DNA of 33,913 nucleotides, taken from positions 1 through 33,913 of the IMG/VR virus record IMGVR_UViG_3300036715_001868. One strand, 5' to 3'. The DNA is from a virus. This document shows positions 1,296 through 33,913 of the stretch, piece after piece. The notes below the pieces were generated by a model, which was not told where the DNA came from, searched no databases, and was given only the letters and a program-made list of their open reading frames with translations. The translations under genes and the position numbers were made by a program. Position 1 is the first letter of the stretch. Each line of letters begins with the position of its first letter.

Positions 1296-1338
1296 AAAAT
1301 GTTTTTATTGTTGTTAAAGCAACCTTATAGTTTGCTTA

Positions 1339-1375
1339 ATAAGAAGTGTATCACATTGCGTGATACACACCTTAT
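1339..1375 (-). promoter_or_regulatory. Strong hairpin just after the capsid stop codon
   Basis: Perfect 9-bp arms GTGTATCAC / GTGATACAC with loop attgc (1346-1368). The stem extends outward to about 16 bp through ATAAG / CTTAT with one mismatch and one G-U pair. It begins about 8 bases after the capsid gene's last base on the transcribed strand. No T-run follows on the minus strand (TAAGCAAAC), so it is not a classic intrinsic terminator. It may stabilise the 3' end of capsid mRNA or lower read-through. Confidence 0.6.
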
Positions 1376-2588: not shown

Positions 2589-3695
2589 CTAGGCTACTGT
2601 TTCAGCCTTTTTCTTTGCCACAAACTTATTTACCATTGCTAGTACTGTTTCGTTTGTTTTGTCATTTGTACGTAACAGTGTTTGTACGTTTTCCATAACC
2701 TCAGCAAATGAAAGTATGACAACCTCAGCCTCAACGCTACCTGTATCTTGTACAGCCTCCGTTGGCTTTTCGGTGACAACTTCCTTTTCAATTACTACCT
2801 CCTCAGCACTTGCCTCCTTTGGGGTGCAACTATCTTTAAGGTTTTGTAGGTGTGTACAACCTGTACCCATTGCCTCCATAGCCTTATCAATAATAGCCAA
2901 ACTTTCCTTTGATAACTTAGCACCTGCCTTTTCCTCTTTAGGGGTAAAGTCTTTTGCCTCTGCTGAGCCAATAGCCTTACCAACCTTAGTTGTAGTATCA
3001 GCACTTTCACCGTCTGCAACCTGCTGTAATAGGTCTACTGTTTCAGTAAGAAGTGTTTGGAAACTATCAACAGGGGTATTTTGGTCAAAATAAACGCAAC
3101 CAAATGCCTGTATAACGTCCATAACCTTGCACCAGTTCTCATACTTAGCATCAAGCATTTCCTCAGCATTTATTTCCTCAGCAACAGCCCCTTTATCAAT
3201 AACCTCCATTTTAGCCTCAATAGTCTTAATAAAGTCAGCATCAAAACCTTTCTCTACTGCTCTACGTAGTGCCTCTTGGTTTGCAGGTACAGGTACAAGT
3301 GATAACTCAAGTAACTCACTACGAGTAATAACATTACCTTGTCTTTCTAGTGGTATAAAACCAACTGATGATGCGTTAACAATTCCCTCCTCATACAAAC
3401 GCTTTACTTGCTGTGCCATTGGGTTTGCATCTGCTGTAGCAAATATAAAATCTGCAATAAGCTGACCCTTTATTACTTGTGCTGATACTACTTTACCGAT
3501 AGGTAGGGCTGAGTAGTCGTGTGCCCAAAGTAGTACAGGGTTTTTCTTAAAGTTCGTTAAGTCCCAACCTGACTGGTCTACTACGTCACCCTGACGGTCT
3601 ACTGCATTTGTAGATGCAATGATAGTGAAAATATCACTACCGTTATCACCTGCCTTTTTTTCTACACCACCGAGTAAATAACTTTTAGTATTCAT
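2589..3695 (-). CDS. Prohead maturation protease, HK97 family, with long C-terminal extension
   Basis: 368 aa. The protease domain is residues 1-160: NAVDRQGDVVDQSGWDL, His59 in NPVLLWAHDY, Ser109/110 in GIVNASSVGFIPL and LSLVPVPANQEAL. These fit the His/Ser centre of the U35/S78-like prohead proteases, which cleave the capsid delta domain. The extra 200 or so residues are acidic and Lys/Glu-rich (EEKAGAKLSKESL; VEKEVVTEKPTEAV), longer than the usual 200-230 aa enzyme, and may act as a scaffold. The gene seems to have its own extended -10 box 6 bases before ATG. Confidence 0.9.
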   Translation of the reverse strand: MNTKSYLLGGVEKKAGDNGSDIFTIIASTNAVDRQGDVVDQSGWDLTNFKKNPVLLWAHDYSALPIGKVVSAQVIKGQLIADFIFATADANPMAQQVKRLYEEGIVNASSVGFIPLERQGNVITRSELLELSLVPVPANQEALRRAVEKGFDADFIKTIEAKMEVIDKGAVAEEINAEEMLDAKYENWCKVMDVIQAFGCVYFDQNTPVDSFQTLLTETVDLLQQVADGESADTTTKVGKAIGSAEAKDFTPKEEKAGAKLSKESLAIIDKAMEAMGTGCTHLQNLKDSCTPKEASAEEVVIEKEVVTEKPTEAVQDTGSVEAEVVILSFAEVMENVQTLLRTNDKTNETVLAMVNKFVAKKKAETVA

Positions 3696-3701
3696 ATTGT
3701 A

Positions 3702-3710
3702 ATAATATCA
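3702..3710 (-). promoter_or_regulatory. Extended -10 promoter (TGATATTAT) for leaderless protease mRNA
   Basis: On the minus strand TGA-TATTAT is followed by exactly 6 bases (tacaat) and then the ATG of the protease gene. The transcription start would fall on the A of ATG. No -35 box is convincing. The spacing repeats at 21201, 27366 and 32949, which raises confidence. Confidence 0.5.
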
Positions 3711-3735
3711 CGCTTTTTGTAAAGTGTCTGTTTAG

Positions 3736-3744
3736 TGTGGATAA
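3736..3744 (-). other. DnaA-box-like 9-mer (TTATCCACA)
   Basis: Perfect match to the classic DnaA box on the minus strand, in the short gap between the small membrane-protein gene and the protease gene. One such match can occur by chance in a genome this size, so a role in replication is not established. Confidence 0.3.
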
Positions 3745-3746
3745 TG

Positions 3747-8941: not shown

Positions 8942-11020
8942 CTAGTTAGAATTATCAAACACTGGCAATGTACCACACTCACAATTTGGGTGTGGGTCTG
9001 GTGGTTGTACTGAGCCGTCAGGGAAAGTATCACCAATATCAACTACCTTACCCTCATTTTGCTTACAGTCATTATCCTCAGGGTCTACTACTATCCACTC
9101 CCATTGACCAACACCTGCATCTTGATAAGCAAGTTTTGCACCCTCATTAGCTGATGCACTTGCCTCTGTTCTCGCTATCATATCAGCACGTGAGCCTTTT
9201 GCTATGTCATAGACGTTTGAAATGTTTGCACTTATTTCGTCTATGGTTAAGCCCTCATCAAGTCCTGCTTGTACTGTATCTACAATAGATGTTGCTGTTG
9301 TTTCTGTAATCTGTTCAGCAAATAACTTAGCACGTGCCTTTATAAAGTTTTGTGCAGGGCTACTGTTAATATCAAATGCCTCACCACCTGCTAGGTTACT
9401 TGCTTGGTCTGCTGACCTATTTAAGTAGTCCTGTAGGTATGGTGTCATAAGCGACACACCTGCCTTTATAGCCTCCTCTTCATCAAAGACAATATCACTT
9501 ACTGCCTTATACTTAAACTCTTTTGTTTCAAGTCCTTTAAGTTCATTACGTAGGTTACGTAGTACTTCAGCCTCTTGCTTAGTAAAGTATGCCTCAAGTT
9601 TTTTCTTGAGTTGTGCACGGCTAGAGTTAAGGTTTGCTTTCCATAGTTTAATATAGTTATCACGTACATCACCCTCAATATGCTTATATACCTTACGTGT
9701 AGGCATCTTACCTACAAAGTCCTCAATTGCTTTCTCAGCAATAGATAATGTCTTTGTGTCCTTTTTTGCAATAGCTTTTACTTTTAGCTTTTCTGACTTT
9801 GCCTTTTTAGGTACAGGTAAATTGTCTATTTCAACAAGGTTAATACCACCCATAATAACATCACCCTCAGCTGTAGGTGGTAAGCCCTCACGTGCACGTA
9901 TCTCATTACGAGTAAGCCAGTTGTTGATACCTGCTGTGTATTCAGCCAATACCTCAGTCCTGTCCTCTTTTACAGGGCTATCAAAGTCAAAGTACAGTGT
10001 ACCTTGCTCGTCAAAGTCAGGTAACAAAAACTCATTAAGTGTATCAACGATATTTTGCATCAACTCTTTAACGGTAAAGAGGTTAAAAACGTAAATACTA
10101 GCATCAGCAGTGGCACGGTTAACGTTATCTGTAAGCCCTAGTATTGTCTTTGGTACTTGGAAAATAGCAAGTATTTCGTCACGGTTAAGTACCTTTTGGT
10201 CAGCAAACTGCATCTCTGACTGGTTTGTACTTGTTTCTTTCCAAGTAACACCACCTGACAAGATAGCAACCTTATGTGCCTGAGCACTGCCTTTATGTTC
10301 CTTATCCCATTGCTCACGTAGTCGCTTGTACTCCTCAGTACCAACAGCACCGTCTTTACCTACCTCAAGTATTCCATTTGGTGTGGCACTATTCTTAAAG
10401 AAGTTTAAGTTCCACTTTCGTATTTCATTATCAGTATCAATTGCCCAAGCACTAGCCTCAACCACTGACATACCCATATGTGGAAATGGGTGCTCACCCA
10501 TTGGGTTAAAGTTTTTGAAATGGATAACCTCGTTAGCATCAAGTGCTATCTTACGCCCACCGTCTTGCTTAAAGACATAACCACCAACAAGCAAAGGGTT
10601 AGCACTATCAATAACCAAACTTACCTTATCAGGTCGTAGTATGTAAATCTCTTTAATTTCACCCTTACCGTCTTTATCACGTGCTAGATACCAAAAGGCG
10701 TTACCATTAAGGTCAAGAAAAGACTGTGTTGCTTTTAACAAGTCCTTTTTAGTCATATATGGGTTAACACGGTCAAGCAAATCTAGTATTGGGTTACTCT
10801 CTACCTCAACACCGTCCTTGTCATAAAGGTCAAGGTCAATGTTTGCAACAGCGTTAGCACGTACTTTTACACAAGCGTTTACCCAGTTTTTATACTCCTC
10901 AAGTCCTTTAAGCTGTACACGGCTCTGTACTCCTACACCATAACGACTACCTAGAAGTTGATAAAATGGCTGTTGTATTCCTTTGCTAAGTGACTGGTAA
11001 AGACGTGTAAAAATGTTCAT
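8942..11020 (-). CDS. Portal protein fused to a MuF-type minor head domain
   Basis: 692 aa, against about 400-500 for a portal alone. Residues 1-410 match HK97-family portals: KNWVNACVKVRANAVANIDL, GNAFWYLARDKDG, NEVIHFKNFNP, QVPKTILGLTDNVNRATADA and GLPPTAEGD. A Lys-rich linker follows. Residues about 430-690 look like the SPP1 gp7 / Mu gpF minor head protein: a long helical part, then IARTEASASANEGAKLAY and the Cys/His-containing end WIVVDPEDNDCKQNEGK...DPHPNCECGTLP. Portals form the dodecameric DNA gate; MuF domains sit inside the head, bound to the portal or DNA. Fusion ensures equal dose. Confidence 0.87.
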   Translation of the reverse strand: MNIFTRLYQSLSKGIQQPFYQLLGSRYGVGVQSRVQLKGLEEYKNWVNACVKVRANAVANIDLDLYDKDGVEVESNPILDLLDRVNPYMTKKDLLKATQSFLDLNGNAFWYLARDKDGKGEIKEIYILRPDKVSLVIDSANPLLVGGYVFKQDGGRKIALDANEVIHFKNFNPMGEHPFPHMGMSVVEASAWAIDTDNEIRKWNLNFFKNSATPNGILEVGKDGAVGTEEYKRLREQWDKEHKGSAQAHKVAILSGGVTWKETSTNQSEMQFADQKVLNRDEILAIFQVPKTILGLTDNVNRATADASIYVFNLFTVKELMQNIVDTLNEFLLPDFDEQGTLYFDFDSPVKEDRTEVLAEYTAGINNWLTRNEIRAREGLPPTAEGDVIMGGINLVEIDNLPVPKKAKSEKLKVKAIAKKDTKTLSIAEKAIEDFVGKMPTRKVYKHIEGDVRDNYIKLWKANLNSSRAQLKKKLEAYFTKQEAEVLRNLRNELKGLETKEFKYKAVSDIVFDEEEAIKAGVSLMTPYLQDYLNRSADQASNLAGGEAFDINSSPAQNFIKARAKLFAEQITETTATSIVDTVQAGLDEGLTIDEISANISNVYDIAKGSRADMIARTEASASANEGAKLAYQDAGVGQWEWIVVDPEDNDCKQNEGKVVDIGDTFPDGSVQPPDPHPNCECGTLPVFDNSN

Positions 11021-11043
11021 ATAAAAATGTTGTTTATGTTTTT

Positions 11044-11052
11044 AGTATAACA
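11044..11052 (-). promoter_or_regulatory. Extended -10 box (TGTTATACT) just upstream of the portal gene
   Basis: Minus-strand TGT-TATACT ends 23 bases before the portal ATG. No -35 at the right distance. It may be a second start signal downstream of the stronger TTGATA/TAATAT promoter at 11066-11094. Confidence 0.4.
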
Positions 11053-11065
11053 CAACGACTGCAAT

Positions 11066-11094
11066 ATATTACTTATGCACAGTGCATTTATCAA
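11066..11094 (-). promoter_or_regulatory. Promoter TTGATA-17-TAATAT with palindromic operator, for portal and late head genes
   Basis: On the minus strand TTGATA (11094-11089) and TAATAT (11071-11066) are separated by exactly 17 bases. The spacer holds a perfect odd palindrome ATGCAC-A-GTGCAT (11075-11087), a position where a bound dimer would block RNA polymerase. A related half-site, ATGCACAG, occurs at 20861. The transcript would run left into the portal and the late genes. Confidence 0.6.
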
Positions 11095-11102
11095 CATCGC
11101 TA

Positions 11103-11132
11103 TTGACACTATGTTACTAAAAGTGTTACAGT
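11103..11132 (+). promoter_or_regulatory. Plus-strand promoter TTGACA-18-TACAGT with TGT extension
   Basis: TTGACA (11103-11108) is a perfect -35. After 18 bases comes TACAGT (11127-11132), preceded by TGT, giving an extended -10. It points right, away from the portal promoter. The two -35 boxes are 8 bases apart. The predicted start is near 11139. No gene is in front of it on this strand, only the structured stretch and terminator at 11181-11208. Confidence 0.5.
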
Positions 11133-11138
11133 ATCGGT

Positions 11139-11208
11139 GTAGGCTACCGTATACGTGATACGACTTTAAACAGTTGGGAAAAGACACCTTTGCAGGGTGT
11201 CTTTTTTT
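11139..11208 (+). ncRNA. Candidate small RNA of about 70 nt between terL and portal
   Basis: The stretch starts at the predicted start of the TTGACA/TACAGT promoter and ends in the T-run of a rho-independent terminator. It contains GTAG/CTAC (11139-11147) and CGTAT/ATACG (148-162) small hairpins, then the 8-bp terminator stem. No ORF with a sensible start fits. It would be antisense to any terL-to-portal read-through transcript, so it could limit that or act elsewhere. Evidence is promoter plus terminator only. Confidence 0.35.
11181..11208. terminator. Intrinsic terminator between terL and portal, stronger in the plus direction
   Basis: Stem AAGACACC / GGTGTCTT (8 bp) with a 7-base loop. 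In the plus direction the last stem bases run into seven T (11202-11208). In the minus direction only four T occur around the stem end before CCC. It overlaps the terL stop codon (11207-11209). It can end the plus-strand small RNA and probably weakens terL read-through into the portal unit. Confidence 0.65.
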
Positions 11209-12571
11209 ATATCCACATAATGTTAGGTATCGGTGCAAAGTCAAAGTACATACGCATCATAAGGGTATCTGAAAAGTCAGGTGACCTACCTAGATGCTCT
11301 TTCATTTTGTCTTTAGGTATCACAGCAACCTTACCGTCTTTATCCATATTGTGTTGCTTTACCTGTTCCAACTCCTCACTTATCATTTGTTTTATCTTTT
11401 CATTTTGAGTATCAACACGCATCTTACGTGCGTTAATTTTCTTTGCTAGGGCAAAGTAACACTGGCTCTTGAGGTTTTGGTAGTTCTCTCCATTAAACGG
11501 TGTACCGTTGTTTAGAAAACCCTTACAGCCCAAGAAGTCCTTAACACCTCCACCTACACCGTCCTCGTCTACAAGTACACGGCTGATACCTACACCGTAC
11601 TTATCACGCCACTCTTGTATGATACCTGCCGTTGATAACTTCTTTGGGTCGTTAAAATCAGGTACGGTTGGTAACTTCGTGTACATTGCTATACGTTTAC
11701 AAGCAAAGCCCTCCCAGTATGAAATAACTGTCTTGTCGCTACCCATACGTGCTACGTCAGCAATGATGCACTTAAAATCACTGTCAGGCACAGGGTTACT
11801 CCAAAGGTCTTGTATTGCCTCAAAATCAACCAAACGTGCAGGGTCGTCGTCATACTCCCAGTTACCAAATAGTAAGCGTTCCTTTATCTCTTTTGGCTGT
11901 CTGCTGAGGTTATCAACATAGGTTGGGTCAATAAAAGGGTTATCAGTAGCAAGTGACTGCATAAACATCTTGTCATACGGCAATGTGCCACGTTTCCACG
12001 GCAAATAAAACTCACTATATAAATAGTTTTTACTTGGGTTACAGGTTAACAACTGCTTAGGTATAAGCCCAAACTCACGCAACTTATAACGTATACGTGA
12101 CCTGAGCACATCCTTACCTTTCTGCTCTACCTGTTGTGCCTCGTCAATAAAAGATGTTGTGAGTTCGTAACTACCTAGACGGTCATAGTTTGGGTCACTT
12201 GGGTAATAGTCCAACTCTAGTAAATAAATAACGCTACCTGTCTGTGGAAAAGTAACCGTGTTGTTTTGTTGGTTATATACATAATCTCTACCGTCACGTA
12301 AGCCGTCTAAACTCATTTGGTCAAAGAGTGTGAGCAGGGTAGTTTTCTTTAAGGTTACCAACTCCTTACGTGCTATTGCTACACGTGCACCCATATAGTT
12401 AATACACACGTCAATGACGTACATACAACCCAAACGGCTTTTACCTCCACCTGCACCACCTCCATAAACAAACTCTGTTATCTCTTTATTTTCTCGTAAG
12501 ATAAGTAACGCCTCGTACTGTTTAGGTGACACCTGACGCTTAATTTTCGTGGTATATGATGTACTAGCCAT
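11207..12571 (-). CDS. terL: Terminase large subunit
   Basis: 454 aa, the expected size. ATPase: Walker A GGGAGGGKS at residues 37-45; Walker B FIDEA at 141-145; the coupling motif is LLTCNPS (175-180). The nuclease has the RNase-H-like acidic residues Asp272 (IIADVARMGSDKT), Asp335 (VLVDEDGVGGG) and a C-terminal Asp near 437-440 (PDFSDTLMM). It packages DNA through the portal and cuts it. It overlaps terS by 8 bases and lies before the portal unit. Whether packaging is cos- or pac-type cannot be read from the sequence. Confidence 0.95.
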   Translation of the reverse strand: MASTSYTTKIKRQVSPKQYEALLILRENKEITEFVYGGGAGGGKSRLGCMYVIDVCINYMGARVAIARKELVTLKKTTLLTLFDQMSLDGLRDGRDYVYNQQNNTVTFPQTGSVIYLLELDYYPSDPNYDRLGSYELTTSFIDEAQQVEQKGKDVLRSRIRYKLREFGLIPKQLLTCNPSKNYLYSEFYLPWKRGTLPYDKMFMQSLATDNPFIDPTYVDNLSRQPKEIKERLLFGNWEYDDDPARLVDFEAIQDLWSNPVPDSDFKCIIADVARMGSDKTVISYWEGFACKRIAMYTKLPTVPDFNDPKKLSTAGIIQEWRDKYGVGISRVLVDEDGVGGGVKDFLGCKGFLNNGTPFNGENYQNLKSQCYFALAKKINARKMRVDTQNEKIKQMISEELEQVKQHNMDKDGKVAVIPKDKMKEHLGRSPDFSDTLMMRMYFDFAPIPNIMWI

Positions 12572-20679: not shown

Positions 20680-20687
20680 ATATTTAC

Positions 20688-20745
20688 GCAAGGTGGTTAT
20701 TTCCTCGCTGTAGTTATTATACCATACACATCGTAACATTTGCAA
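20688..20745 (-). promoter_or_regulatory. Early promoter A with conserved motif and leader hairpin
   Basis: Minus strand: TTGCAA (20745-20740), 18-base spacer holding GTTACGATGT, TATAAT (20721-20716), predicted start near 20709, then 5'-leader hairpin GCGAGG [AAATAACCA] CCTTGC at 20708-20688, nine bases before the ATG at 20679. A perfect DnaA-box-like 9-mer lies just upstream (20748-20756). Confidence 0.75.
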
Positions 20746-20747
20746 AG

Positions 20748-20756
20748 TTATCCACA
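20748..20756 (+). other. DnaA-box-like 9-mer in the control region
   Basis: TTATCCACA, a perfect match to the classic DnaA box, directly upstream of the -35 of promoter A. It could recruit host DnaA for replication or control of the promoter. A chance match is possible. Confidence 0.35.
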
Positions 20757-20777
20757 ACACACTTTAACTTTATTATG

Positions 20778-20783
20778 TATAAT
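20778..20783 (+). promoter_or_regulatory. Plus-strand TATAAT box in the control region
   Basis: A perfect TATAAT on the plus strand without a recognisable -35. A transcript would start near 20790 and meet the hairpin at 20856-20885 after about 100 bases. It runs divergently from promoter A. Confidence 0.35.
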
Positions 20784-20855
20784 ATAGTAAGACAGTACTT
20801 TAACAATCTATCCAAAACAGAGGACATTTCAAAAAAATTATCTTTTCAGCAACAG

Positions 20856-20885
20856 CCCCTATGCACAGTTATGCGTGTATAGGGG
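20856..20885 (+). terminator. Hairpin with T-rich tail (possible attenuator)
   Basis: CCCCTATGCAC / GTGTATAGGGG form an 11-bp stem (one G-U pair) with an 8-base loop, followed by tttgttgtttgtt. This is a plausible plus-strand intrinsic terminator with a broken T-run. It contains ATGCACAG, the half-site of the palindrome in the portal promoter. Confidence 0.5.
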
Positions 20886-20894
20886 TTTGTTGTT

Positions 20895-20903
20895 TGTTAC
20901 AAT
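20895..20903 (+). promoter_or_regulatory. Extended -10 box (TGTTACAAT) for the plus-strand gene
   Basis: TGT-TACAAT lies 10 bases after the hairpin and 33 bases before the ATG at 20937. No clear -35. Confidence 0.4.
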
Positions 20904-20936
20904 GATATAGGTAGTTACTTTTTACAAGGGGGTTTT

Positions 20937-21128
20937 ATGATAAAGACTGACAAAACGTTAGATAGGTTACAAGCCCTTGTAAAAGAGAGTTTGCAACCAA
21001 TTGTTATGGACGGTTACACGTGGTATGACATAACAAACGAGGGGTTAGAGGCTGAGGTTAAAATACTAAGAGTAGGTGGTGCTATTGCACACCACCCATT
21101 AGTAAATACCTTGATACGTTTCAACTGA
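20937..21128 (+). CDS. Plus-strand 63-aa protein of unknown function
   Basis: 63 aa (MIKTDKTLDRLQALVKESL, then QPIVMDGYTWYDITNEGLEA, with a hydrophobic end AIAHHPLVNTLIRFN). The only clear plus-strand gene besides two micro-ORFs. It is also the only one with a SD-like sequence: AAGGGGG four bases before the ATG. It lies in the divergent control region, so a regulatory role is tempting, but no HTH or other motif is seen. It is followed by a good terminator at 21171-21201. Confidence 0.6.
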   Translation: MIKTDKTLDRLQALVKESLQPIVMDGYTWYDITNEGLEAEVKILRVGGAIAHHPLVNTLIRFN

Positions 21129-23353: not shown

Positions 23354-24058
23354 CTAGGTAAAAATAACCTCAGGCTCTTTGGCTTTATTTCGCTGTACAG
23401 CATCTTTAATCTTAACCCACTTATCTCTTAACTCAACTGGCGTGGTTACACTCGGCATATAGGGCAATTTTTGCTTTAAGATAGGTATTGCCTTAATGAC
23501 CTGAGTGACTAAATCAAGCCCATACTCAGAAATAAGAAAGTCGCACGCCTCACGTTGGGTTTTGTTACCATAAAAGCGTTTATTCTTTGGGTCAATGGTT
23601 TCCATTTCTTTAATTACTAAAGGTATAAGGGTAGCATTACCTGTGCAAGGCTCTGCCTTGCTAGTATTATCTTTATTATTATTACTTGTAGTATTATCCT
23701 CATCATTTTTAGTGATAGGGGTATCACTATTTTTAGTGATAGGGTCACCCTTTTTTTGTGTGGAGGGGTATGTACATAAACGTATATACCTAGCCTCAAC
23801 CTGTTTACTATTTTCTTTGTAAACTATCTCTGATGAAATAAAACCGTAGTCAATAAGTTGTGCTATCCAAAGCGATACTGTATTAACTGATACACCATAT
23901 AATTTTGCAAAATAACTATTACTCGCCCAACAAAAACCCTCTTTATTTGATAGGGCTGTTATCTCTGAGTAAAGCAATTTTGCATTTGGTTTTAGTCGCA
24001 CGTCATATCTTATCTCGGCAGGTATAATGCCATAGTAACTTGGGTTTTGTATTTGCAT
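23354..24058 (-). CDS. Replication initiator-like HTH protein (DnaD-like layout)
   Basis: 234 aa. Residues about 10-75 are a winged HTH of the type common in phage initiators: YGIIPAEIRYDVRLKPNAKL, LYSEITALSNKEGFCWASNS, YFAKLYGVSVNTVSLWIAQL. A Ser/Asn/Thr/Asp-rich linker (about 105-140) repeats PITKN (DPITKNS, TPITKND). The C-terminal 90 residues are helical, like the DnaD-type helicase-loading domain of Firmicutes phage proteins. The linker-coding DNA has three 8-mers at 12-bp steps (23710-23741), a likely origin. Confidence 0.75.
   Translation of the reverse strand: MQIQNPSYYGIIPAEIRYDVRLKPNAKLLYSEITALSNKEGFCWASNSYFAKLYGVSVNTVSLWIAQLIDYGFISSEIVYKENSKQVEARYIRLCTYPSTQKKGDPITKNSDTPITKNDEDNTTSNNNKDNTSKAEPCTGNATLIPLVIKEMETIDPKNKRFYGNKTQREACDFLISEYGLDLVTQVIKAIPILKQKLPYMPSVTTPVELRDKWVKIKDAVQRNKAKEPEVIFT
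23706..23744. repeat. Iteron-like alternating repeats inside the initiator gene (candidate replication origin)
   Basis: TAGTGATA (23710-23717), TATCACTA (23722-23729) and TAGTGATA (23734-23741) are perfect and mutually inverted, separated by GGGG and TTTT, a regular 12-bp step. The 15-mer TTTTTAGTGATAGGG occurs at 23706 and 23730. A location inside the initiator's linker is typical of phage origins (lambda O type). It also fits simple repetition of PITKN codons, so binding is not proved. Confidence 0.55.
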
Positions 24059-25199: not shown

Positions 25200-25208
25200 A
25201 TTATAGCA
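25200..25208 (-). promoter_or_regulatory. Extended -10 promoter (TGCTATAAT) for the acidic gene
   Basis: Minus-strand TGC-TATAAT overlaps the last codons of the HTH gene. A leader of about 30 bases follows to the ATG at 25163. No clear -35. Confidence 0.5.
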
Positions 25209-25605
25209 TAAACTCTTTTGCAAAAGTTTCGCTGTGCACCGTTTCAGTCTTTAATAAACCACAGCACCCACACTTAAATGTTTTAACTATTTCGGTGTGT
25301 GTGCACGTTTCTCGTAGTTTAAGTTTTCTGTCCTCAGCCTCTTGCACATAGTCGTCATAGCATTTTACACGTTGTAAATTAAAGTGTTTACTCTGTGTGT
25401 CACTAGGTACGTGTGCACGTTTAGGTATAGTTTGCCTGATAATAAAATTACCACTCAACTTATTACGTTTGTTGATGTGGTAAATTATTGTACTATGATG
25501 CTTACCAAACTTTTTGGCAATATGTAACTTTGGTACGTCTAACTTATAGAGGGCACAAATCTCGTCAATTTGTTCCTCTGTAAGTTGTTCGTCTTTTGTT
25601 CGCAT
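25201..25605 (-). CDS. HTH and zinc-ribbon protein (possible transcription regulator)
   Basis: 134 aa. Residues 8-45 form a HTH of the resolvase/Trp-repressor kind: LTEEQIDEICALYKLDVPKL, HIAKKFGKHHSTIIYHINK. The middle is basic. The C-terminus has two Cys pairs (KTFKCGCCGLLKTETVH, with CTHTEI just before) fitting a small zinc ribbon. It is the only strong DNA-binding regulator candidate in the window. It could bind the palindrome at 11075-11087 or the 10-mer of early promoters A-C; this is a guess. Confidence 0.65.
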   Translation of the reverse strand: MRTKDEQLTEEQIDEICALYKLDVPKLHIAKKFGKHHSTIIYHINKRNKLSGNFIIRQTIPKRAHVPSDTQSKHFNLQRVKCYDDYVQEAEDRKLKLRETCTHTEIVKTFKCGCCGLLKTETVHSETFAKEFML

Positions 25606-25606
25606 T

Positions 25607-25789
25607 TTAATGTGATAGTACTATTGTTACTTGTGCTCGTAGACGTGCAAGTTTTGCATTGTCCTCGTCACTCATAGTGCTATTACTTAAAATAATATCA
25701 CACAAAGATGTCAAGCCAGTGTTTATATCCACAAGTGTCGTTGCGTTTTCTATTGATTTAATAATTTCTGGTATGGTCATATTAAGCAA
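25607..25789 (-). CDS. Small helical hypothetical protein
   Basis: 60 aa (MLNMTIPEIIKSIENATTLV, DINTGLTSLCDIILSNSTMS, DEDNAKLARLRAQVTIVL). It is all-helical, no membrane segment. Its 5' end overlaps the Gly-rich fibre gene by 8 bases and it stops 1 base before the HTH gene. An assembly helper of the fibre upstream is possible but unsupported. Confidence 0.5.
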   Translation of the reverse strand: MLNMTIPEIIKSIENATTLVDINTGLTSLCDIILSNSTMSDEDNAKLARLRAQVTIVLSH

Positions 25790-26894
25790 AGTAATTATTT
25801 TTTGCCACTAAAGAATAAGCACCTGCACCACCACCACCACCACCACCACCACCTGCACGTCCACCTAGCCCTGTCCCACCAGTTCCTGCACTACCTGCAT
25901 TTGTACCACCACCTGCTGTGCCGTTTGTCCCATTTGTTCCACCACCACCTGCACCACTAGCACCACCTGCACCATAGTAACCACCACCACCACCACCACC
26001 ACCACCACCCCAAGCATTATTAGCACCGTCTTGTGCTGTTGCTGACCCACCATTACCACCATTACCACCATTAGATGTAATAGTGCCTGAGTTTGCTGTA
26101 AGTATGTTATATAAAATAATACAATTACCTGCTGACCCACCACCACCACCACCACCACCTGCCTCTGTACCATTTGGGTTACTTGGGTTTGCAGGTGTAA
26201 TACCATTTTGTCCTGATGTATTTATTGTTCCTGTAAAATTAAGTGCACCACCACACTCAATTAAAAGTGCACCACCACCACGTCCACCTGCACCACCTAC
26301 TGATGTTAAAGCCCCTGAGCCACCACCTTTATTACCAAAACCACCACCACCACCACCTGACCCAGCCGTTATTGGCAAATAACGTCTTGATAATGTCATA
26401 GTATCTACTGGATATAAGAATGTATTACCTTGTTGTATTCCACCTGCACCTGATATACCATTAACACCTGCACTACCATTGCCACCTTTAATTCCTTTAT
26501 GTGTTGCAAGTACATCAACAGTACTATTACTTTCTGTACCGTCTGTAGCTGATGTCGCTGTATTAGCAATACCACCAGTACCACCAATTGCACCAAGTCC
26601 TCTAAGGTCAATACAAGGTGTAGTTGATGATGTTATTGTAACGTCACCCTGTGACCTTAAAACTATTACAGTACCATTTGCGTGTGGGTTTGTAAAAGTT
26701 AAACTTGCTGTACCAGTAATAGAAATAGACGTATAATTTTTTTCTAAAAAAGCAACACCTGCTAAATCTATATTTGTTGCACCACTAGAAATTGTAAGTG
26801 CACCGTCTACACCAGTACCACCAAACTGAGCAATACCATTTATATCTGATGCTAACACTTGGTCACCTGCAACCCATACTTTTCTTTTTGCCAT
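25782..26894 (-). CDS. Glycine-rich tail fibre or adhesin
   Basis: 370 aa. Residues 1-110 form a beta-rich base (AGDQVLASDINGIAQFGGTG; ANGTVIVLRSQGDVTITSST) similar to fibre N-termini. The remaining 250 residues are runs of Gly (GSGGGGGGFGNKGGGSG; NNAWGGGGGGGGGG; GRAGGGGGGGGGAGAY) separated by beta-loop segments (NFTGTINTSGQNG; NAWG). This resembles the polyglycine-II packing of phage S16-type adhesins, where variable loops at the tip bind the receptor. It lies 3 bases after the next fibre gene. Confidence 0.75.
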   Translation of the reverse strand: MAKRKVWVAGDQVLASDINGIAQFGGTGVDGALTISSGATNIDLAGVAFLEKNYTSISITGTASLTFTNPHANGTVIVLRSQGDVTITSSTTPCIDLRGLGAIGGTGGIANTATSATDGTESNSTVDVLATHKGIKGGNGSAGVNGISGAGGIQQGNTFLYPVDTMTLSRRYLPITAGSGGGGGGFGNKGGGSGALTSVGGAGGRGGGALLIECGGALNFTGTINTSGQNGITPANPSNPNGTEAGGGGGGGGSAGNCIILYNILTANSGTITSNGGNGGNGGSATAQDGANNAWGGGGGGGGGGYYGAGGASGAGGGGTNGTNGTAGGGTNAGSAGTGGTGLGGRAGGGGGGGGGAGAYSLVAKNNYFA

Positions 26895-32957: not shown

Positions 32958-32985
32958 CTTATTTTATAAACAAGTATGCACATTA

Positions 32986-33412: not shown

Positions 33413-33865
33413 TTATTTTAATTGTTCAATGATATTGTTAATCGTTCCTTTTATTATAACATTTACTCTGTCAACACTTGCATCAAGTGCACGTTGAAAA
33501 AATAGGTTTGCTTTTGTTCCTTTCTTTTCTATGCTCTTAATAACTGCCCAAGGTGATATACCTTTCATTTTTGCCCACGGTGCAATTTCGTCATATGGTA
33601 CTGTATGTGGTGCTGTTCCATATTCAACGTCTGAGGCATACAGTCTGCCACTCTTAATTGTACCCTCAAGAGGTTTAAACTCACGTGTAAAGGTACTACG
33701 TAGTTTACCTGTCACCCCTCGTGGGGCTTCTTTTTTAAGTTCATTATCAACAACAGTAAGCACAGCTTGTATTGTTGCATTGGCTTGTTTAATACCCACC
33801 TCAGGGGCTTTTTCAATTAAGGCTTGTAATCTATCAAGCCCACCAACTTTTAACTCTAAACTCAT
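33413..33865 (-). CDS. HK97 gp10-like head-tail protein
   Basis: 150 aa. The pattern KVGGLDRLQALIEKAPEVG, then ANATIQAVLTVVDNELKKEA, PRGVTGKLRSTF, RLYASDVEYGTAPHTVPY and KKGTKANLFFQRALD is that of the gp10-like family ('P..TG.L..S......G.V....YA.YVE.GT', 'PF..PA'). It is thought to help tail completion. Its ATG overlaps the adaptor's TGA across the window join. Confidence 0.85.
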   Translation of the reverse strand: MSLELKVGGLDRLQALIEKAPEVGIKQANATIQAVLTVVDNELKKEAPRGVTGKLRSTFTREFKPLEGTIKSGRLYASDVEYGTAPHTVPYDEIAPWAKMKGISPWAVIKSIEKKGTKANLFFQRALDASVDRVNVIIKGTINNIIEQLK

Positions 33866-33913
33866 AACTCAGGTGCAGTGAGTAAATACTTTTTATGTGC
33901 AGTAAGTGAAAAC
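33781..33913. repeat. Direct terminal repeat, right copy
   Basis: Second copy of the window's first 133 bases, with one silent mismatch at 33904. It contains the 5' end of the gp10-like gene and, from 33862, the last codons of the adaptor gene, which is complete at the left end. Joining 33780 to 1 restores the order connector, adaptor, gp10-like, tail terminator. Confidence 0.95.

Follow-up and report, generated by a model that had tools for sequence, protein, structure and literature searches.

The terL-portal gap

In the window, by which we mean the whole 33,913-bp stretch of viral DNA analyzed here, the genes for two head-building proteins, the terminase large subunit (terL) and the portal protein, are separated by a gap of 186 bp. 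The region is also present at locus L003 of a related genome. The genes and the features between them are as follows.

8942–11020, minus strand: portal protein gene with a head-morphogenesis-like C-terminal region (PHROG portal profile, E 1e-114)
11044–11054, minus strand: extended −10 element TGTGTTATACT, the likely portal promoter; identical in L003
11073–11081, plus strand: DnaA-box-like site 1, TTATGCACA, 9/9 to TTATNCACA; identical in L003; at −36 to −44 of the leftward promoter
11075–11087, no strand: palindrome ATGCACAGTGCAT of the original prediction, overlapping site 1 and the gap after it; not conserved as a palindrome
11088–11096, plus strand: DnaA-box-like site 2, TTATCAACA, 8/9 in the window; TTATACACA (9/9) in L003
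11103–11132, plus strand: sigma-70-type promoter TTGACA-18-TACAGT, with TG before the −10 box; aligned copy in L003
11139–11208, plus strand: predicted non-coding RNA of ~70 nt, with predicted ends; promoter, terminator, and core conserved in L003
11146–11161, plus strand: conserved RNA core ACCGTATRCGTGATAC, 15/16 identical in L003; mostly unpaired in the predicted fold
11161–11176, plus strand: small hairpin CGACU-loop-AGUUG (CAAGC-loop-GCUUG in L003), predicted in both RNAs
11179–11208, plus strand: intrinsic terminator with a 10-bp stem (arms 11179–11188 and 11196–11205) and a rightward T7 tract
11207–12571, minus strand: terL, clear by profile; its stop codon adjoins the 3′ end of the RNA

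Every motif named in the original prediction, which was made from the window alone, is present at its position.

The genome and its relatives

The window is an IMG/VR record. Because its two ends share a 133-bp direct repeat (1–133 and 33781–33913, with one mismatch), the record probably represents an entire genome of about 33.8 kb (33,780 bp), circular in its map and opened at an arbitrary point. Nearly all genes run leftward. IMG/VR holds one close relative, the 33,500-bp record G001, which contains L003; it is collinear with the window at ~69% DNA identity, and the amino acid identity is 75% for TerL and 70% for the portal protein. G001 is opened at another point, near terS/terL.

No carrier of the terL-portal control region besides these two was found in IMG/VR, and further scans with terL, portal, and decoration-protein genes did not find a third genome with the region; the comparative evidence on the control region therefore comes from two genomes. 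In the distant relatives examined, the terL-portal gap is short, with little in it beyond a promoter, and for this reason the RNA and the boxes look like an insertion particular to the lineage of the window and L003. A search of GenBank phages found no relative at the DNA level. Among the TerL relatives whose hosts are named, most are phages of Bacteroidota, at 35–45% identity, and portal relatives are scattered; a prophage and host search of a genome collection returned just distant homologues of the portal protein, from Paenactinomyces and from an Anaerolinea MAG, which are uninformative on the host. Intergenic identity between the window and L003 is 63%, and the runs of identity by themselves are only mildly unlikely (P 0.03).

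The likely portal promoter

The portal promoter is most likely the extended −10 element at 11054–11044. A 12-mer that holds this element, TTGTGTTATACT, is common to the window and L003, and in both a very short leader precedes the portal gene; for the window the predicted start is near 11037 and the leader is about 17 nt long. Equivalent elements stand just before portal in at least five divergent lineages, with portal identity of 50% or less: TGTGATATACT (L093–L096), GTGATATACT (L100), TGTGGTATAAT (L001), TGTGATATAAT (L102), and TGGTATAAT (L004). Similar extended −10 elements, present as orthologous copies in the two genomes, also precede other genes, terS (13103) among them, and the distance from element to ATG is often 5–10 bases. 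This phage seems, from such recurrences, to use many nearly leaderless promoters; the portal promoter would most likely be one of many alike, and no special switch.

Matches to TGnTATAMT lie before gene starts on the minus strand of the window at 32958, 27375, 25209, 20725, 13103, 11054, and 6916, most of them with G001 orthologues.

The original prediction had described back-to-back promoters, with TTGATA (11094–11089) and TAATAT (11071–11066), 17 nt apart, as the leftward one. Divergent promoters were right in kind, but the leftward one was misplaced: L003 aligns TTGTGT and an unrelated stretch to the two boxes, and the conserved extended −10 element is ~20 bases to their left.

The rightward promoter and the candidate RNA

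The boxes of the rightward promoter are TTGACA (11103–11108), 8 bases from TTGATA, and TACAGT (11127–11132), a mediocre −10 box, with an 18-nt spacer ending in TGT. L003 has TTGACT-18-TATAAT at the aligned place, an 11/12 match that is stronger than the window copy. The test is fair, since both place and spacing had been predicted beforehand from the window. Only two sites of at least 11/12 occur in the whole of G001 on both strands (0.2 expected per strand), and the probability of such a site on that strand of random sequence resembling the intergenic region is 0.003, or 0.0006 with a spacer of 18. At the level of sequence, then, the predicted rightward promoter is borne out by a copy of the same place and spacing. 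The consensus used for scoring is of the E. coli type, which may not apply fully to the phage’s host.

The terminator hairpin is found in both genomes, ~70 nt from the start, with a rightward tract of T7 or T6. On its leftward side there are only three or four T in both genomes (TTTT then CCC in the window), which would make the hairpin a weak terL terminator at most; since the T tract lies on the opposite, rightward side, the idea that it is mainly a terL terminator was dropped. The window and L003 RNAs fold alike over their 3′ two thirds, which comprise the 5-bp stem and the terminator, with folding z-scores of −3.2 and −3.5. Between the two genomes, two of the five pairs of the small stem have changed on both sides with pairing kept, and in the terminator stem six of the ten pairs have both bases changed and are still paired; these pairs were compared on hand-registered stems, as MAFFT sets the RNA hairpins one base out of register. 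Such compensatory changes, in two sequences only, are suggestive of RNA structure.

The window and L003 RNAs share no reading frame. A short frame (mini-ORF) in the L003 RNA is closed in the window. We found no Rfam match at the gathering score, and chance-level matches only at a relaxed threshold. An IMG/VR scan with the core gave no other credible carrier; three more exact matches, without promoter and terminator, were taken as chance. A search for phage-internal targets of the core revealed no convincing site.

We infer that an RNA is made from 11139–11208, because promoter, terminator, and core are conserved. The aligned promoter and terminator in L003, together with the absence of a shared frame, agree with the earlier proposal that the right arm makes a short non-coding RNA ending at an intrinsic terminator, and the candidate is better supported than could be known when it was first noticed. 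Our guess is that the RNA is regulatory and that its 16-nt core, which is mostly unpaired, base-pairs with a transcript of the host or the phage.

The gap might instead be an operon boundary only, consisting of a terL terminator and the portal promoter, with the rightward promoter and DnaA-like sites there by chance. This reading draws on the hairpin right after the terL stop with the portal promoter next, and on the abundance of sigma-70-like sites: scored against the consensus, the window alone has 12 promoter-like sites in 4.5 kb, with 10.8 expected, which is the level of shuffled sequence. Indeed, the rightward promoter and terminator are significant only because of the comparison with L003. 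That same comparison tells against a mere boundary, as L003 has the T tract on the rightward side, the promoter at the same place and spacing, and the RNA core. We consider a mere boundary unlikely.

A pair of DnaA-box-like sites

The palindrome ATGCAC-A-GTGCAT, proposed as an operator in the TTGATA/TAATAT spacer, is there in the window; in L003 its right arm is GTACTT and the palindrome is lost. By itself the palindrome is weak evidence, and degenerate copies occur elsewhere in the window no more than by chance. Its half-site ATGCACAG does recur at 20861, as had been noticed, in a hairpin loop. A direct pair of DnaA-box-like sites is the better reading, because L003 has lost the palindrome and kept both nonamers and their spacing. 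The two nonamers are in direct orientation with six bases between them, a 15-bp spacing, alike in both genomes. Counted from the portal promoter, the pair lies at −36 to −59, and from the rightward promoter, at −43 to −66.

The sequence TTATNCACA is the DnaA-box consensus (PMC4447404, PMC5835720). G001 has three perfect copies, with 0.41 expected; two are this pair, and the third is orthologous to window positions 3736–3744, in the non-coding gap that precedes the protease gene. None of the three perfect copies in G001 lies in coding sequence, and of the window’s five, three are likewise non-coding. The motif was recognized only post hoc, and pairs of boxes at 15-bp spacing are not rare in viral contigs. 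From the match of the boxes to the consensus, and from that only, we infer that DnaA binds the pair, and we offer this putative binding as a new, testable lead.

Paired boxes beside the promoter of a short RNA could also belong to a replication element, in which they would belong to an origin, or an origin enhancer, that depends on DnaA, with the rightward transcript serving transcriptional activation or priming. Such a role was once proposed for the lambda pO transcript, where DnaA sites lie nearby and pO activity affects replication (PMC3985674). In the window, however, the replication initiator gene (23354–24058) is 12 kb off, GC skew does not turn at 11 kb, and there is no repeat array besides the two sites, which makes a replication element quite improbable.

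Very improbable is the genetic switch first suggested, with a repressor on the palindrome toggling both promoters and an RNA antisense to terL-portal read-through that helps set late timing: a perfect palindrome does lie between divergent promoters in the window, and the RNA is complementary, by position only, to any read-through transcript, but neither the palindrome nor the TTGATA/TAATAT boxes are conserved, the degenerate copies are at chance level, no repressor was identified, and similar extended −10 promoters serve many other genes in both genomes, leaving the switch and late timing without support. The protein encoded at 25201–25605 on the minus strand (134 aa, with a CGCC motif), once suggested as the palindrome’s binding partner, has only weak helix-turn-helix matches, one to HTH_38 and one, 19 residues long, to the C-terminal helix-turn-helix of DnaA, both below cut-off, and we found no evidence linking it to the site.

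A probable divergent control region

We favor, as the probable reading, a divergent control region in the 186-bp gap, with the portal promoter directed leftward, the ~70-nt RNA rightward, and the putative DnaA-box pair between them. The extended −10 promoter would start the portal/head operon leftward with a very short leader, and the near-consensus sigma-70 promoter would make the RNA, which would end at its own terminator beside the terL stop and might act by base pairing through its core. A protein on the box pair, most simply host DnaA, could act on both promoters, as the upstream positions of the pair are places where a bound protein can contact polymerase.

A bolder version has the gap as a replication-sensing control point in the late genes, at which host DnaA on the boxes would set the RNA and the portal/head operon oppositely. 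We think this rather improbable. If it were true, head assembly would follow the state of DNA replication; and if DnaA really binds between the RNA and portal promoters, the phage would be reading a host replication signal to set head-gene expression.

Small RNAs of phages have mostly been found by RNA-seq in a few model phages. Recognizing a small-RNA unit by comparing two uncultivated genomes shows a way to look for others.

Other elements in the two genomes

A second divergent region lies at 20680–20940 of the window (8080–8290 of L089), with a leftward extended −10 element at 20725, a perfect intergenic DnaA box, TTATCCACA, at 20748 (8/9 in the relative), a conserved plus-strand stretch, AGACAGTACYTTWACAAYCTATCCAAA, and a hairpin whose loop contains CTATGCACA (20859) in the window and CTATCCACA in the relative. 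It is possibly another leader or small RNA. The gap before the protease gene (3690–3745, minus strand) is strongly conserved, with TAACATTATCCACA, AAACAGACACTTT, and GCGTGATATTATTAC followed by ATG, and its perfect DnaA box is oriented along the direction of transcription.

Immediately following the major capsid gene (1335–1375, minus strand) is a hairpin, GTGTATCAC-GCAAT-GTGATACAC, which the relative retains with its loop changed and no T tract; it is perhaps an mRNA end or processing site. It shares GTATCACG with the candidate RNA in the window only, not in the relative. In the replication-initiator region of the relative (L089, 11649–11710), the palindrome GCGACATTTTTGTCGCT occurs three times at 22–23 bp spacing, as possible iterons or operators. 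Imperfect short direct repeats cluster at 25816–26359 of the window, inside a 370-aa reading frame (25782–26894).

Comparison with known systems

The leftward promoters resemble extended −10 (TGn) promoters in having TGTGnTATAMT without a good −35 box. They differ in often standing only 5–10 bases from the start codon, which suggests leaderless or nearly leaderless mRNAs. As in DnaA-regulated promoters with box pairs (PMC4447404, PMC5835720), two TTATNCACA-like nonamers lie in direct orientation upstream of promoters, whereas here the sites are putative and lie in a phage late region.

Among known arrangements, lambda pO/OOP and its neighboring DnaA sites come nearest, an analogy in which we claim no sequence relation. 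OOP RNA, of 77 nt, is made from the pO promoter, with DnaA-box-like sites nearby (PMC3985674, PMC12197685). Like OOP, the candidate RNA of the window would be a short non-coding RNA with its own promoter, an intrinsic terminator, and DnaA-box-like sites near the promoter. OOP is antisense to the coding end of cII and lies beside the origin, whereas the predicted window RNA does neither: it would span just the gap that follows terL, among the late genes, with the initiator gene 12 kb away.

For position, the nearest parallel is in the lambdoid prophages of EHEC, which carry short sRNA units (AgvB and others) in a late-region insertion site (PMC4104026). Those units adjoin moron genes that lie downstream of PR′, and they use Hfq to act on host RNAs, whereas the window locus has no moron gene. 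In both cases, small RNA genes, that of the window being a candidate, lie between late phage genes and are oriented against them.
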